Shown here piece by piece: positions 43,650-56,124 of a stretch of DNA of 56,124 nucleotides. Position numbers and translations under genes: made by a program. Source of the DNA: a virus. Within the stretch, counting starts at the first letter, position 1; each line of letters starts with the position of its first letter. The stretch covers positions 1 through 56,124 of IMG/VR virus record IMGVR_UViG_3300047163_000046; one strand, given 5' to 3'. Below the pieces are notes generated by a model. That model made no database searches. It had not been told where the DNA came from and saw only the letters and a program-made list of their open reading frames with translations.

Positions 43650-43954
43650 GCATTACCTACGTTGGGAAACTTTGCGAATGCCACCCTGAACTGGATGGCG
43701 TTCGCTACGACAGCACGCGGACTTGCGTTGCCTGCGCCAAAGAGGCGGCGACGGTCAGGTATTGGCGCGACAAGCAGCAAAAGACGCACGCCAATTTGCT
43801 TGCCGCCCTGATGCGCGAGAAGAACTTGGAAAACGAATGCCAAAGATTGCGAGCCGCCAATGATGCACTATCACGGAACACCGATCACCCCGATGTCCAA
43901 GCTGCTGCGTATGCGCGGAAGGAACTTCTGCGTAAGTCACGCGGCCCCAGCTGA
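43646..43954 (+). CDS. Cys-rich accessory protein
   Basis: This 102-residue protein starts at GTG overlapping the previous TGA. It has KLCECHPELDG and TCVACAKE, a zinc-ribbon-type Cys pattern, then a coiled coil (QKTHANLLAALMREKNLENE). The last 95 bases overlap the start of the transglycosylase-like gene. No function is recognised. Confidence 0.5.
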   Translation: MSITYVGKLCECHPELDGVRYDSTRTCVACAKEAATVRYWRDKQQKTHANLLAALMREKNLENECQRLRAANDALSRNTDHPDVQAAAYARKELLRKSRGPS

Positions 43955-44534
43955 TCTGAAGCGGTGCCTCAGCATTGGACAATCGGTGATGTTTGACAAC
44001 GGGGCATTCTCAGCGTTCACCAAAGGCAAGAAGTTTGATGAGGCCGGATTCTATGCGTGGATTGAGCCGCATCTAGGTCACCCGCATTGGGCCGTGATCC
44101 CAGACGTTATTGACGGGGATGAGGGCGAGCAACGACGCATGGTGGGCCGCTGGCCGTTCAATCGAACGCTGGGGCTTCCTGTATGGCACCTTGGACTGTC
44201 GATTGACTATCTGCTTTACCTGGCCCAGACATGGGACCGGATTTGTTTCGGGTCTACGGCGCAGTATTGGGAGGTCGGCGGTGATGCCTGGTGCGGGCGC
44301 ATGGACGAAGCATTTAATGCCCTGGCCAAGCGACACGCAAAACTGCCGTGGATTCATGGCCTGCGGATGCTTGGCATGGCCGGGATGCGGTGGCCGCTGG
44401 CATCGGCTGACTCGACGAACATTGCCCAAAACCACCATATTTACGGATGCCCGGAATGCATGGCGGATAGACTGGACGCCACGCAAACGCCGGTCACTTG
44501 GCAACCGCACGCAACCCAAGGGATGCTGATATGA
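43860..44534 (+). CDS. tRNA-guanine transglycosylase-like protein (DpdA-type candidate)
   Basis: This 224-residue protein resembles short phage members of the TGT superfamily: YHGTPITP, SVMFDNGAFSAFTKG (DNG, residues 46-48, comparable to the catalytic DSGGF of TGT), WAVIPDVIDG, PVWHLGLSIDYLL, WIHGLRMLG and LASADSTNIAQNH (D184). DpdA enzymes put 7-deazaguanine into DNA. No synthesis genes (queC, queD, queE, folE) were found in the window, so the base would come from the host. Target (DNA or tRNA) is inferred. It overlaps both neighbours. Confidence 0.65.
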   Translation: MMHYHGTPITPMSKLLRMRGRNFCVSHAAPADLKRCLSIGQSVMFDNGAFSAFTKGKKFDEAGFYAWIEPHLGHPHWAVIPDVIDGDEGEQRRMVGRWPFNRTLGLPVWHLGLSIDYLLYLAQTWDRICFGSTAQYWEVGGDAWCGRMDEAFNALAKRHAKLPWIHGLRMLGMAGMRWPLASADSTNIAQNHHIYGCPECMADRLDATQTPVTWQPHATQGMLI

Positions 44535-45127
44535 ACACCACGCAGGAAGAACTACCGCCGCTGCCCAGTGTGGGCTTTATGAGTAGCGCCGAAGCCGTTG
44601 GGCGGTTACTTACCCTAGTTAATGCCCAAGAGCCAATACTTGATTGCACCTTTGGCAGCGGCGACTTCTGGATTGGCAGTACCAGAACTGCAGTTGGCTG
44701 CGACATAGACCCGGACAGGGCGCGCGACAGTGTTCAAGATTTTACGAATCTTAGTTTTAAGGACGGGGAATTCCCAACGGTGGTTTTTGATCCGCCTTTT
44801 CATCCCTACGTTGGCAGCATTGAAGAAACTCAATTCAAGGGCATGGGCAAAAACGAAAAAGAGTTGCGTTCACTATTCGACAAAGGACTGAAAGAGGCTT
44901 GGCGAGTTACGTCGCGGCACTTGCTCGTTAAGTGTCAAGGATTCGTACATAACCACAAGCCTCAATGGATGCCGCTATGGGCTATAGAAATATGTGGTGA
45001 GCCGTTTGAATGGTTGATCGTTGCTAGAAACCACAAGGTTATCAGCGGTAGATGGAAAAACGTAAAGTCCCTTCGACGCAATCATGCGGATTATTTGGTG
45101 TTTGACAAGAAAGGAAATCACCGATGA
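44531..45127 (+). CDS. DNA methyltransferase-like protein
   Basis: This 198-residue protein has an AdoMet-binding motif I (LDCTFGSGDFW, residues 37-47), an acidic residue after strand 2 (GCDIDPDRA) and a catalytic FDPPF (residues 86-90) typical of amino-methyltransferases. It probably methylates DNA adenine or cytosine. The ATG overlaps the stop of the transglycosylase-like gene, so the two are co-translated. The DNA is visibly richer in A/T than the neighbours, suggesting recent transfer. Confidence 0.7.
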   Translation: MNTTQEELPPLPSVGFMSSAEAVGRLLTLVNAQEPILDCTFGSGDFWIGSTRTAVGCDIDPDRARDSVQDFTNLSFKDGEFPTVVFDPPFHPYVGSIEETQFKGMGKNEKELRSLFDKGLKEAWRVTSRHLLVKCQGFVHNHKPQWMPLWAIEICGEPFEWLIVARNHKVISGRWKNVKSLRRNHADYLVFDKKGNHR

Positions 45128-46404: not shown

Positions 46405-46835
46405 ACGTCGAGGAATTCGTAGGTCGATTGGATGGCGTCATGGGGCGCGGCCCGCGCTGGCGCGCGATCTGCCCGGCCCACCAATCGCGGCACAAGACCA
46501 AGACGCTCTCGATCCTCGATGCTGGCGATGGCCGCATCCTGGTCAAGTGTCACGCCGGCTGTGCCATCGAATCGATCTGCGGGGCCCTGGGCATCGACCT
46601 GGGTGAATTGTTCCCCCCGCGCCCCAAGGACTTCGATGATCGCAACCGCAAGCCGCCGATCCGCAAGCCCTGGACCAATGCGGAGGTCGCCAACGCGCTT
46701 GAGCCCAACCTGACCAGTGCGTTCCTGCTGCTTGCCAAAGTCGGATCGGGTGCCAGGCTGACCAAGGAAGAATTGAAGGAGGCCGTGCGCGCGGCCGAGG
46801 CGTGTATCCACCTGCTCGATCAGTTGAGGGAATAG
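46401..46835 (+). CDS. Primase zinc-binding domain protein
   Basis: This 144-residue protein has a primase-type zinc finger: C24 and H27 in ICPAHQSRH, C50 and C54 in VKCHAGC. The rest is a helical region (ELKEAVRAAEACIHLLDQL). It has no TOPRIM or polymerase domain, so it can only recognise template and would need a partner. GTG 46401 has GGAGG at a good distance. It shares one base with the helicase gene that follows. Confidence 0.75.
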   Translation: MNVEEFVGRLDGVMGRGPRWRAICPAHQSRHKTKTLSILDAGDGRILVKCHAGCAIESICGALGIDLGELFPPRPKDFDDRNRKPPIRKPWTNAEVANALEPNLTSAFLLLAKVGSGARLTKEELKEAVRAAEACIHLLDQLRE

Positions 46836-47797
46836 TGAACGATAAGCGCAATAGGGAAGTCGCGGACCAAATAATCCGCTCGCGCATCATCAAGGACCAC
46901 CGCCAGGTGGACACGGGCAAGTGGGCAATTCCAGAAGACTCGCATCTGCTGCGCACGCCGTCAGCGTTTCGTGACGACGTGATCGCGCTTTTTGCCGACC
47001 AGTCGTGCAAGGGCGACCGGATGCCCGCGAGCAAGACGCACGATTACCTGCGGTTTCGGCCGTCCGAGGTTTCGATCTGGCTCGGGTTCCATGAATCGTA
47101 CAAATCCACCTTCCTCAACGAGCTTGCTGCTTACTGGGCCGTGAGCGGCATCGGCGTGGCGATCGCTTCGCTAGAGATGCCGGCGCCGATCCTGCTGCAC
47201 AAGACCGTGATGCAAGTGCTTGCGAAGACCGACCCAGGCGTGCCAAGGATTGATGACGCGCTCGAAGTGCTGTCCGAGAAGCTGACCATCTATGACGTGA
47301 CCGGGCGCGTGCCCCCGAACCACCTGATCTCCGTGATGCGGTACTGCGCATTGGAGTTGGGCGTGCGGCATTTCGTGCTGGACAACCTGACCATGATCCT
47401 ATCGGTGGACAACGAGCGCGCGGCAGAGCATCAAGCATTCGTCGCAAACTGCGTGACCGTGGCGCGCACCACGGGCCTGCATATCCACCTGGTTGCCCAC
47501 TCGAACAAGCCGGCCGGCGGCGACGAGTCGAAGATGCCAGGTCCTTACGATGCGCGTGGCACGGGCTCGGCGCCGGACATGGCCGATAACGTGATGGTGT
47601 GCTTCCGCAACAAGGTGAAAGAGGACAAGATCGACCAAGGCAAGGCGGACGATGACACCTACAAGGAGCCCGATTTCATCCTGCGCGTGGCCAAGCAACG
47701 GCACTGGGGGTATCGTGGGTACATCAACTACTGGCTGGACCGCAGGGTGCTGCGCTTCCATCAATACGGCACCGACGAAGTGACCGCCATGCTATGA
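46835..47797 (+). CDS. DnaB-type replicative helicase (RecA-like ATPase)
   Basis: This 320-residue protein has a RecA/DnaB ATPase core: Walker A-like GFHESYKST (residues 84-92), GVAIASLEMPAP, Walker B-like HFVLDNLTMI (D183) and VAHSNKPAG (H-loop). The usual second glycine of the Walker A (GK[ST]) is Tyr here, an unusual variant. Phage primase-helicases of this type unwind the fork. It begins one base before the primase stop and is followed by small zinc-ribbon genes. Confidence 0.75.
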   Translation: MNDKRNREVADQIIRSRIIKDHRQVDTGKWAIPEDSHLLRTPSAFRDDVIALFADQSCKGDRMPASKTHDYLRFRPSEVSIWLGFHESYKSTFLNELAAYWAVSGIGVAIASLEMPAPILLHKTVMQVLAKTDPGVPRIDDALEVLSEKLTIYDVTGRVPPNHLISVMRYCALELGVRHFVLDNLTMILSVDNERAAEHQAFVANCVTVARTTGLHIHLVAHSNKPAGGDESKMPGPYDARGTGSAPDMADNVMVCFRNKVKEDKIDQGKADDDTYKEPDFILRVAKQRHWGYRGYINYWLDRRVLRFHQYGTDEVTAML

Positions 47798-48018
47798 CCC
47801 AGGCGGACCCAGGCGGACCCAGGCGGACGCGCGCGGATCTGCGGTGCGCGCGGTGCGGCGGCGTGCTGGCCCTGGACCGCTGGCCGGTGCTGCCCGAATG
47901 CGCGCCGTGCGCGAACCAGGCGGTTCAGGAGGCCGACGAAAGGGCGCGGGCGCTGCTGATGGGGGGCGATGTTTTCAACGGCAACCAGCCGCGCGCGCCG
48001 CGCGTGGTGAGCAAATGA
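47794..48018 (+). CDS. Zinc-ribbon protein with 5' tandem repeat
   Basis: This 74-residue protein has two CxxC knuckles (RCARCGG and CAPCANQ), a zinc ribbon. The first codons lie in three copies of a 10-bp repeat. Because 10 is not a multiple of 3, copy number changes would shift its frame. It overlaps the helicase stop and the next ATG. No partner is known. Confidence 0.55.
   Translation: MTQADPGGPRRTRADLRCARCGGVLALDRWPVLPECAPCANQAVQEADERARALLMGGDVFNGNQPRAPRVVSK
47801..47830 (+). repeat. Three tandem 10-bp copies (AGGCGGACCC)
   Basis: AGGCGGACCC occurs twice and AGGCGGACGC once, head to tail, just inside the start of the gene at 47794. A single related copy (ACCCAGGCGGACGC) occurs near 48060. 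Slippage would alter reading frame. Confidence 0.8.
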
Positions 48019-52901: not shown

Positions 52902-53099
52902 TTAGGTCCTTTCGGGTGAGTTGCGGAAAACCTTGCGCCAGAGGGCGGACCATTGCGCCACGGGGCGCACGGGTTGATAAGGGCTGGCGTGGTGCCAGTT
53001 GTTCGGGTTGTGCGGCGTCCAGCCGGCGGCCGTGAATAGCTGCTGCTCCCGTTCCCTGGCGCGGGCCTCAGCGGTTGCGGCGCGGTGCGGGCGGGTCAT
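52902..53099 (-). CDS. Small accessory protein
   Basis: This 65-residue protein is Trp/Pro/His-rich ([20 protein letters not shown]). It is four bases inside the RadC gene's end and ends three bases before the next gene. It may be a small inhibitor or regulator, but no domain is recognised. Confidence 0.5.
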
Positions 53100-53596
53100 A
53101 TCAGGCCCCGTTCAGCGAATGACATCGATGCGGCGCCGGCCACGATGACGTGATCAAGGACCCGGCAATCAACCAAGGCGAGCGCTTCGCGCAGGACGGT
53201 GGTCAGGCGCTGGTCCGCTTGTGATGGTTCCGCGGTCCCGCTCGGGTGGTTGTGGGTCAGGATGACGGCGGCGGCATTGAGGGTCAATGCTTCCTTCACG
53301 ACTTCGCGGGGATACACCGAGGTTTGCGTGAGCGTGCCACGGAACATTTCGCGGAATTCGATCAGCCGGTGCTGCGCGTCCAGGAAAAGTACCCCAAACA
53401 CCTCATGCGGCAGGGCGCCCAGGTTCAGGGCGCAGAATTGCCGGACGTTGGCGGGGCTGGGCATGGCGTCACCCTTGACGGTCATGCGCTGGCGCAGGAT
53501 ATGCAGCGCGCGCAGGATGATCTCGTCATCGCATGGGACCACGGGCACCGAGTAGGGCGGCGCATCTTCACTCTTGGCGCGGCGGCGGGCGGTCAT
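53096..53596 (-). CDS. radC: RadC-like JAB domain protein
   Basis: This 166-residue protein has the RadC/JAB core: [20 protein letters not shown], then [15 protein letters not shown] with the HxHPSG...S...D metal-binding motif. RadC domains are common in phages and plasmids. The original DNA-repair role is contested; a deubiquitinase-like fold or restriction-related role is possible. The start at 53596 follows an RRR-rich start. It overlaps both neighbours by four bases. Confidence 0.8.
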
Positions 53597-53898
53597 GCCT
53601 GCACCTTGGCAAGGACGGCACGGGCGATGTTGGCAACGTCTCCGCACGTCATCGCGGCGTATGGGTGGCTTAGAGCTATCCGGTCGATTTCTTCCAGCGC
53701 CGCAACCAGTTCATCGTAGGCATTCACACAGCGGACGATGTGGGCGGCGTTGGCTTGCAGCGTGTCCGCGTCCATCGGCGGTTCTATCTTGGTGAGGCAC
53801 TGCGGGCCTTGCAGAATCATTCCGCCAACGTGAAGCGCGGAGCCGTTGCCGTAGGCGAATGACGCGTACCACGGCGTTGGGGTGTGATTGGTGGTCAT
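53593..53898 (-). CDS. Phage accessory protein ([12 protein letters not shown] family)
   Basis: This 101-residue protein contains [10 protein letters not shown] at the N terminus and [20 protein letters not shown] near the middle, a signature I have seen in many phage accessory proteins. No enzymatic motif is visible. It overlaps its neighbours by four bases. The family function is not known to me. Confidence 0.7.
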
Positions 53899-54095
53899 GC
53901 CTGCACCATGCGGGCGGCGGTTGCCATGGCATCGGCGCGATCGTGCGTGTGATAGGCGGCGCGCTTGTTCTCTTTGCCGTTGACGTACAGACGGCAGATG
54001 TATTCTTCCCAGTCCTGGTTCCAGTTGACGCGCACAGTGCGCAGGGCGGTCGGATTCTTGCCGCCGATAACCCTCGTTACGGTCTTTTCGCTCAT
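53895..54095 (-). CDS. Small accessory protein
   Basis: This 66-residue protein is the first gene of the unit after element D. It has TRVIGGKNPTALRTVRVNWN and a basic, mixed beta and helix sequence. GGAGG at the element's end is its ribosome site. No domain is recognised. Confidence 0.55.
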   Translation of the reverse strand: MSEKTVTRVIGGKNPTALRTVRVNWNQDWEEYICRLYVNGKENKRAAYHTHDRADAMATAARMVQA

Positions 54096-54103
54096 GCTGA
54101 TAG

Positions 54104-54165
54104 CCTCCGGTTCCGGCGCTGCCCACCATAGGCCGCGCCCCCCTTTCGGGACCTCGATGGTGAGG
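54104..54165 (-). promoter_or_regulatory. Repeated leader element D
   Basis: Minus strand: hairpin GGTCCC-GAAA-GGGGG-like stem, CCTATGGTGGGC, eight bases, AACCGGAGG, then the gene at 54095. It heads the leftmost-reading accessory unit. TATGGT is the same -10-like block as in element B. Confidence 0.6.
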
Positions 54166-54275
54166 GCAAAACGGGTCAGTGAGTAACGACTAACCCCCCG
54201 GAAACACCCGATAAATGGGCCAGGGAATACCCTATATGAGGTAATCCTTTCGGATGATCCGAGGTTATGGATGCG

Positions 54276-54293
54276 CGGTGCGGCACCGCACCG
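54276..54293. promoter_or_regulatory. 18-bp palindrome in the divergent region
   Basis: CGGTGCGG-CA-CCGCACCG is a perfect inverted repeat of 8+2+8 bases with a CA centre, the same design as the operator at 40429 but another sequence. It lies between the leftward accessory units and the rightward replication gene, so it could be the operator for either. Other gene-free parts of 54166-54429 are GC-rich with no clear promoter; CGGAT-G-ATCCG near 54251 is a shorter palindrome. Confidence 0.55.
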
Positions 54294-54429
54294 AACCTTG
54301 GCGCGGGATGGGGTAGCGCGGGGGTGCGGGTGACCCTATGATGACGGACGCGGGGACACACGCCGGCCGGCGGCGCCGATGCCCTCACATTGGCTTACCC
54401 GCACCCATTCCAGCCTGAGGGGGCGTCGA

Positions 54430-55302
54430 TTGGCCTACAACCGCGTTATCCGTGGCGAGATCCTCAACTCCGAAAGGATCCTGGACCTCAGCAGCGATAC
54501 CGGGCGATGGATTTACCTTGCCCTGGTCCTGGAGGCTGACGATTTCGGGAACATCCAAGGGGGCGATCGTCGGCTGTTCCGTTGGGCGGCCATGTTCTCC
54601 CAAATCAAAACCGAAGCGGACATGGTGCGGCTGATGTCCGAATACCAAGATGCGGACCTTGTGCGCGGTTACACCGGGCCGGACGGTAAACCCTACTGGC
54701 ACCTTCCACGCACCGACAATCAGCGCCGCTGGACCGGACGCAAATGGCCCGCATCCCCCTGGGATGACCCTAATAGGCTCACGACTATTGAGAAGCGACG
54801 CGGCGCACAACTGCCGCAGATGGCCCGCAGACTTGCCGCAGACCTACCGCAGATTCCAGTTGATTCCCAATCAAATCAAGGGCCAGAGGATGAAAACTGC
54901 GGAAGCCCTGCCGCAACACTGCCGCAGGACTACGGCAACCCTTCCGCAACCCTGCCGAGAGGGGTAGGGGTAGGGGTAGGAGTAGGGGTTAACACCGTCC
55001 CACTTTTGCAACCGGACCATGGCAGGGACAAGCCGGCAAGGGGAACCAGAATCGGGAAGGACTGGGTCATCCCGGACGAATGGATCGAATGGGCCATGGC
55101 CTACTGCCGGGAGCAGGGCCGACACCCCATGCCTTCCCAAGTCGCAGAGTGGTCCCTGGAATTCGCGGACTACTGGCGAGCCATGCCAGGGTCCAAGGGC
55201 GTGCGGTTGGATTGGGCCGGAGTCTGGCGCAATGCAGTCCGCAACCTGTACGCCAAGCAAGCCCCAACGCAACCGGCCAGATCCACGCTCCGAGGCATCT
55301 AG
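54430..55302 (+). CDS. Replication initiator protein (O-like) with embedded origin
   Basis: This 290-residue protein has an N-terminal winged-helix-like region (LVLEADDFGNIQGGDRRLFR; RLMSEYQDADLVRGYTGPDG) typical of phage replication initiators. A disordered middle follows (about 120-195), containing GVGVGVGVG, then a C-terminal part (WVIPDEWIEWAMAYCREQGR; LEFADYWRAMPGSKGVRLDW) that resembles helicase-loader-contacting domains. I chose TTG 54430 because GAGGGGG lies seven bases upstream; the frame is open to 54379. Its middle holds 11-bp iterons, as in lambda O. Confidence 0.7.
   Translation: MAYNRVIRGEILNSERILDLSSDTGRWIYLALVLEADDFGNIQGGDRRLFRWAAMFSQIKTEADMVRLMSEYQDADLVRGYTGPDGKPYWHLPRTDNQRRWTGRKWPASPWDDPNRLTTIEKRRGAQLPQMARRLAADLPQIPVDSQSNQGPEDENCGSPAATLPQDYGNPSATLPRGVGVGVGVGVNTVPLLQPDHGRDKPARGTRIGKDWVIPDEWIEWAMAYCREQGRHPMPSQVAEWSLEFADYWRAMPGSKGVRLDWAGVWRNAVRNLYAKQAPTQPARSTLRGI
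54811..54962. other. Candidate replication origin: two arrays of 11-bp iterons
   Basis: Array 1 (54811-54854) has four contiguous 11-mers (CTGCCGCAGAT, GGCCCGCAGAC, TTGCCGCAGAC, CTACCGCAGAT). Array 2 (54897-54962) has six (CTGCGGAAGCC, CTGCCGCAACA, CTGCCGCAGGA, CTACGGCAACC, CTTCCGCAACC, CTGCCGAGAGG). They flank 42 bp that are clearly richer in A/T than the surroundings. The 11-bp step is not a codon multiple, so the protein does not repeat; selection acts on DNA. Confidence 0.75.
54961..54988 (+). repeat. (GGGGTA)n tract, G-quadruplex-prone
   Basis: GGGGTA repeats, with one GGAGTA, give four G-runs of four and one interrupted run directly after iteron array 2. The plus strand meets the usual G-quadruplex pattern. 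In the protein it codes GVGVGVGVG. Similar low-complexity segments occur in other phage replication proteins. Confidence 0.8.
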
Positions 55303-55404
55303 CCCGCTCGATCGCCTTGCCAACCCCAGGCAAACCCGGTCAAGCGGGGGAAGGACATGGGAGCCGGGTGAGCCAAGGACTTGGGGCCAGGACAGCGCCA
55401 GGGC

Positions 55405-55520
55405 CAGCGGGGAAGGGCGGGAAGGGCCAGGGCAGGCCGGGAAGGGCGGGAAACACCGACCAGCCGGAAAACACCGACCAGCCGGGAAGACCAGCCGGGA
55501 AGGCCAGCTGGGAAGGGCGG
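55405..55520 (+). repeat. Purine-rich tandem repeats
   Basis: AACACCGACCAGCCGG recurs twice in tandem (55452-55485, 17-18-bp units), followed by a degenerate GACCAGCCGGG copy. On both sides GGGAAGGGC-type units repeat with variation. The tract is strongly purine-biased on the plus strand. Confidence 0.7.
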
Positions 55521-55646
55521 ACAACCGGGAGGGGGCCGTCCAAATGCCACGGCAACCCACAACCCAACGCAAGAATGCCCCAGGTTGTCACGGAATGGCA
55601 CCGCCACGCCACGATCACACCCGCTTGGCTACCCACCCCTAGGCAC

Positions 55647-55687
55647 TACTCTGTCCCCGGTTTAGCGGCCCGTTTTACTCTGTCCCC
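55647..55687 (+). repeat. Direct repeat TACTCTGTCCCC
   Basis: Two identical 12-mers start at 55647 and 55676, 29 bases apart. They may be binding sites for a phage or host factor, but no known consensus is recognised. Confidence 0.7.
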
Positions 55688-55770
55688 AATTACCCAACGG
55701 CGACATTGCGCCCCGGATGGGCACGTAGCGCACCCCATCAGAGGCTAAGTCATTGATTCCATTGATCGGT

Positions 55771-55792
55771 TCTGAAAAGAGATATTTTCAGA
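55771..55792. repeat. AT-rich inverted repeat
   Basis: TCTGAAAA and TTTTCAGA are perfect inverted repeats of 8 bp around GAGATA. In such a GC-rich genome this AT-rich dyad stands out. It could be a protein-binding dyad, a stem-loop, or part of an unwinding element. Confidence 0.7.
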
Positions 55793-56003
55793 AGTGGCAA
55801 GGGCCGGAGGGTCGGGACCACCCCGCTGGCGGCGCCCTAGTCGCCCAGGCCGAAATCCCAGGGCCAGGCAAACGCGAAATCCCCACGCGAAAAGGGGGTC
55901 CACCCCCGAATATCAGATCCTCCCCAAAAGTTTTCCCCCGTCCTGCTTGAACCGAGTGGGTTGACCTGAGTGCCCCCAGTACCTTGGGTGGTGCGCTTAT
56001 GGG

Positions 56004-56017
56004 GTTCCACGTGAAAC
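56004..56017. promoter_or_regulatory. parS-like partition site
   Basis: GTTCCACGTGAAAC matches the core of the chromosomal parS consensus (TGTTCCACGTGAAACA), 14 of the 14 core positions, with G instead of T and A at the outer ends. Chromosomal parS is bound by ParB for segregation. No parA or parB gene is present in the window, so host ParB would have to bind. Confidence 0.75.
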
Positions 56018-56124
56018 GTGCGCCATTTCGCTGAAAATGGTGGGGAAAGTGGGTACTTTGGGGTCAGAAAAGCCTTAATCGTTGTCATTTCTGTGGTAGT
56101 GCGACACACTGTGTGGGGTAGCGC

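Follow-up and report, generated by a model that had tools for sequence, protein, structure and literature searches.

Origins of replication that lie inside the gene of their own initiator are already known. The origin of phage lambda, with its iterons and AT-rich tract, occupies the middle of gene O, and the Stx phages are arranged likewise (PMC7466680); in the Bacillus phage SPP1, oriL lies within gene 38, and there the initiator binds direct repeats that are accompanied by an AT-rich unwinding element (PMC6316719). The locus described here shares with lambda repeats that stand in the middle of an initiator gene, run out of frame with its codons and adjoin a weakly paired stretch, and it shares with SPP1 the layout of direct repeats in the initiator's own gene together with an AT-rich candidate for the unwinding element. 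It also departs from both. In lambda, four 18-bp iterons spaced about 20–24 bp all lie to one side of the AT-rich tract, whereas here ten 11-bp units flank a spacer on both sides, in the gene of a protein that has no Pfam match and is predicted to carry a DnaT-like C-terminal domain; SPP1, for its part, possesses a further origin and a known loader and helicase (gp39 and gp40). An earlier note on this DNA had likened the layout to that of lambda, a comparison that stands for in-gene repeats beside a weak stretch but not for the placing of the arrays or for the protein, which is unmatched to the Pfam family of lambda O. What we add is this variant, and also evidence, drawn from sequence comparison, that across a large modular family of initiators the DNA encoding the linker behaves like a two-part origin cassette. 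Our search of largely open-access literature found no account of such an origin for the DUF1376/HTH_36/DnaT-like family.

The window, that is, the whole stretch of DNA analysed, is a complete virus record of 56,124 bases. It contains genes for a terminase, a portal (head-tail adaptor), a major head protein and an internal virion protein, and the portal is nearest to those of Rhizobium phages RHph_TM3_14A and kin (33% identity), so that the virus is a tailed phage and probably podovirus-like. Terminal repeats were not found in the record, and the run of 13 G at its start (positions 1–13) is probably a sequencing or assembly artefact. A queuine tRNA-ribosyltransferase-like gene lies beside a DNA methyltransferase-like gene (43860–45127), suggesting modified phage DNA, and a RadC-like JAB-domain gene on the - strand (53096–53647) lies next to the replication region. 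No clear gene on the + strand follows the initiator gene, whose end lies 822 bp short of that of the record. Upstream of it is a GC-rich inverted repeat (GGTGCGGCACCGCACC, 54275–54300), a possible operator or terminator, and 3' of it is a noncoding cluster of GC-rich tandem repeats (GGGAAGGGC and GACCAGCCGGGAA, 55397–55515) that may be a second regulatory or origin element. No DnaA box was seen at one mismatch in 53500–56124 and no sigma-70-like promoter in 54000–56124, and an Rfam search gave no match. The DnaB-like protein of the same phage is a possible partner of the initiator; at the end of its gene (47796–47837) is a tandem 10-bp repeat, GACCCAGGCG, whose periodicity over 55 bp is equal in strength to that of the iterons.

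Table 1. Coordinates of the initiator gene, its parts and the helicase gene within the window.
Feature	Position	Strand	Remarks
Replication initiator gene, 289 aa, TTG start	54433..55302	+	phrog_1408 replication initiation protein, E 2.6e-13
Coding DNA of predicted N-terminal winged-helix domain (residues 7-98)	54451..54726	+	pLDDT about 90; fold matches Z up to 8.3
Left array of four iterons of 11 bp, one of them degenerate	54811..54854	+	starts 54811, 54822, 54833, 54844
AT-rich spacer of 42 bp between arrays, candidate unwinding element	54855..54896	.	57% A+T, low stability
Right array of six iterons of 11 bp, the final one degenerate	54897..54962	+	starts 54897, 54908, 54919, 54930, 54941, 54952
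(AGGGGT)5 tract, G-rich, strand-asymmetric, encodes GVGVGVGVG	54960..54989	+	candidate second origin element
Coding DNA of predicted DnaT-like C-terminal domain (residues 201-278)	55033..55266	+	pLDDT 83-98; phrog_3992 primosomal protein
DnaB-like helicase of same phage	46802..47797	+	PF03796 DnaB_C E 2.3e-8; phrog_239, phrog_19

The mechanically called open reading frame runs from 54379 to 55302, and the TTG start within it was chosen by alignment with two relatives, L016 (MPDRVLR) and L095 (MPQRVIR). Most of the encoded protein is covered by the phrog_1408 profile (residues 25–298 of the mechanical frame), and two families of primosomal proteins in PHROGs, phrog_3992 among them, match its C-terminal part. 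Pfam returned no family for it at E ≤ 1, that of lambda O included, and a profile search of solved structures gave nothing significant. An AlphaFold2 model built on a 23-sequence alignment predicts two confident domains, a winged helix and a C-terminal helical domain, with disorder around residues 138–200. The predicted N-terminal domain has its elements in the order of a winged helix, and its structural matches are to ORC2, which gave the highest Z, Fur/PerR and the plasmid initiator Rep; such matches, of middling Z and to a common fold, would tell of the fold only. Comparison with a library of viral structures brought up phage models of a "replisome organizer" and a "replication initiator", along with a single match, weak and in fold, to a protein labelled lambda O N-terminal. 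We presume that the winged helix is the domain that binds the iterons and that the DnaT-like domain contacts the helicase or its loader. The iterons encode residues 127–177 and the G-rich tract the next ten, so that the repeats cover the last part of a helix in the model and then the linker predicted to be disordered, in which the peptide LPQ occurs three times.

The ten 11-bp repeats that the earlier note had described, in two arrays around an AT-richer spacer of 42 bp, are present where it placed them, and its consensus CTGCCGCARM was borne out. Eight of the ten units are clear, the degenerate ones being GGCCCGCAGAC at 54822 and CTGCCGAGAGG at 54952, and the fourth base (C) and the sixth (G) are invariant. 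Across 54806–54965 the match at a lag of 11 is 0.52, compared with 0.19–0.31 at lags other than multiples of 11, and the strongest 140-bp stretch for this lag begins at 54807 with a score of 0.54, the runner-up in the 56 kb scoring 0.43. Five exact copies of the 9-bp core stand against 2.4 expected, so that by itself its sequence is no rarity in the record, and the significance lies only in the clustering at 11 bp. When codons were shuffled synonymously 5000 times, the 79 matches of the actual gene were never attained (mean 58.8, sd 4.8, maximum 75), and after correction for the many lags and window sizes the probability was 0.003; the same corrected test gave p = 0.002 for lambda gene O, the positive control, and p = 0.74 for lambda P, the negative control. 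Because the shuffled genes remain above background at lag 11, the linker peptide must carry part of the period, yet the DNA holds more 11-bp periodicity than the peptide requires. Consecutive units start in all three reading frames in turn, and most units therefore encode different peptides, which agrees with the earlier claim that selection on the protein does not explain the repeats.

The spacer between the arrays is 57% A+T in a record of 36% A+T, a richness in A+T that exceeds that of 99% of 42-mers. Only about 0.5% of the record's 42-mers, at any rate fewer than 0.6%, pair more weakly, and those of lowest stability within 54301–55302 overlap it. By simple arithmetic, its length equals four turns of 10.5 bp. 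Taken together with the repeats, these features lead us to consider it quite probable that the linker-coding DNA of the initiator gene is the lambda-type replication origin of this phage. We infer a sequence of iteron binding, melting and helicase recruitment in which the N-terminal winged-helix domain would bind the ten iterons and, the units being about one helical turn apart, the bound copies of the initiator would align along one face of the DNA. Wrapping could then strain the weak spacer, and perhaps the G-rich tract beside it as well, to the point of opening, after which the DnaT-like domain may bind the single strands or bring in a helicase, either the DnaB-like protein of the phage or that of the host.

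No relative turned up when the window's protein was used by itself to search viral contigs, and aligned sequences of just the N-terminal domain were too diverse to serve as a query. The family comparison started from 157 genes, the window's own and relatives drawn from phages as well as from viral contigs and bacterial genomes, which dereplication reduced to 136. Out-of-frame repeats (p ≤ 0.01, lags 9 to 29) were found in 39% of the 136 family genes and in 1.1% of 265 neighbouring genes from the same loci, which served as controls and were not matched for disorder. The remaining 61% of the family miss this threshold, which counts against an origin. Periods of about 10, 11 or 22 recur with wholly different unit sequences, such as CGAACGCAGC at 10 bp, GTTCAACACAC at 11 and GGAAACAGTCCCAA at 22, among others. 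Some of the survey's iteron calls proved to be simple tracts (for example L039, L153 and L141) and were dropped; in the cleaned set 90% of cases have the repeats inside the linker, and in a few genes (L024, L045, L066 and L083) they fall within the N-terminal domain. Among the closest relatives, L015 has four 11-bp units whose sequence differs from the window's and resembles GTCGGACCTAA (p = 0.006), in L016 units of ATCACCGG recur about every 10.5 bp (p = 0.06, alone not significant) and are followed by a G-rich tract like the window's, and L095 has no detectable repeats, which, like the weakness of two others, is again a point against an origin. Whether related phages keep the phase while the amino acids vary was the check that the earlier note had proposed, and its outcome is mostly positive, clear in L015, weak in L016, doubtful in L017 and negative in L095.

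The family is modular, with exchangeable N-terminal domains joined to one kind of C-terminal domain. On the N-terminal side, Pfam assigned DUF1376 to 49 of 134 members, HTH_36 to 20 and DnaD_N to 3, with others besides; the DnaT family PF17948 matched six of the 134 (best E 0.0015), the window's protein not among them. The repeat period varies with the class of N-terminal domain, the classes being named by us from inspection of the N-terminal sequences together with the Pfam counts. It is near 10 in one class, 11 and 22–23 in DUF1376 and 17–27 in HTH_36. This association was reached in 1 of 10,000 permutations, and in 16 of 2000 after doubtful cases were removed, but it is only suggestive because relatedness is not fully controlled and is partly confounded with class.

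A second element is seen in the same linkers. A tandem tract of 5–8 bp (at least 18 of 24 matches) is present in 60% of the family genes and in 2.3% of the neighbour genes, the only set with which it was compared. It has a nearly fixed place just ahead of the C-terminal domain, the DW codon following at a median of 200 nt; of the 32 genes that have both elements, 25 have the tract 3' of the iterons. Its motif goes with the class, AACCAAT or AACCAAG in DUF1376 proteins, GAGACA-like in class 1 and CAGGAA in class 4, and in most of the window's class it is G- or purine-rich; none was seen in the HTH_36 class. Tract periods of 5, 7 and 8 are out of step with the codons and a period of 6 is in step, so that a cause at the protein level is possible for the window's own (AGGGGT)5. 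Short-period autocorrelation parts the family from its neighbours better than two other measures that were tried and set aside, the longest base-free runs, which showed no excess over codon shuffles, and purine/keto one-sidedness, which exceeded the shuffles in only 6% of relatives. With somewhat less than even confidence, we suggest that the linker in this family could be mainly a DNA origin cassette and not a part of the protein, in which iterons matched to the N-terminal domain would be followed by a class-specific, strand-asymmetric tract of 5–8 bp (the AACCAAT, GAGACA and GGGGTA types) for opening or helicase loading, and in which the DNA-binding domain and its sites would be swapped as one piece.

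Described members of the family bear partial likenesses to the window. The phrog_1408 relatives in Pseudomonas phage LESphi2 and Mycobacterium phage Xeno are similar in C-terminal domain and overall architecture and have linkers of short repeats; they differ in failing the longer-period test (p about 0.55), with 8-bp repeats in its place. Proteins of the DUF1376/YdaU type, as in the Rac prophage, have out-of-frame repeats too, but YdaU belongs to another N-terminal class and has another C-terminal part. In ydaU of E. coli K-12 (L176, 4620–5477) the linker repeats stand at a lag of 23 (p = 0.0085) and are possibly related to the Rac origin oriJ. That the GTTCAA repeats of ydaU are common to the relatives with the closest N-terminal domain was not borne out.

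Some features of the record do not favour an origin at this place. No helicase loader adjoins the initiator gene in the record, which ends 822 bp 3' of it, whereas in LESphi2 the loader and helicase adjoin theirs, and cumulative GC skew reaches its extreme near 38–39 kb and not at 54.8 kb. The latter would suit an alternative that we consider unlikely, namely that the repeats are initiator sites for autoregulation, as a roadblock or operator, or for titration, and that replication starts elsewhere, for example in 55303–56124 or upstream of the gene. The initiator sites of iteron plasmids do serve copy control, and the noncoding 822 bp 3' of the gene are rich in other repeats, including the cluster noted above; yet iterons that surround the region's weakest stretch, with a tract 3' of them, form the layout of an origin, and the repeats are kept inside the gene across the family, for which lambda and SPP1 offer precedents.

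Still less likely, in our view, is that the repeats are functionless by-products of slippage or duplication in a weakly constrained, disordered linker. The linker is predicted to be disordered, simple repeats are common in the linkers of relatives, part of the lag-11 signal outlasts codon shuffling, and the lack of matching for disorder among the neighbour genes bears on this reading as well; the units, however, have diverged from one another and yet remain in phase, and in the family such periods return at the same place in units of unrelated sequence, far more often than in neighbouring genes. It is very improbable that the repeats serve the protein, as a linker built of an LPQ-type peptide: the three LPQ copies and the share of the period that the peptide retains under shuffling speak for this, but no shuffle attains the observed value, and the peptides of the relatives differ.

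If the linker DNA is indeed the origin, frame-independent repeats in the linker of an initiator gene would give a rule for locating origins in many uncultured phages and prophages straight from their sequence. The odd low-complexity linkers of these proteins (VGVGVG and the like) would then be explained, and the exchangeable DNA-binding domains would form a testable pairing with their sites.
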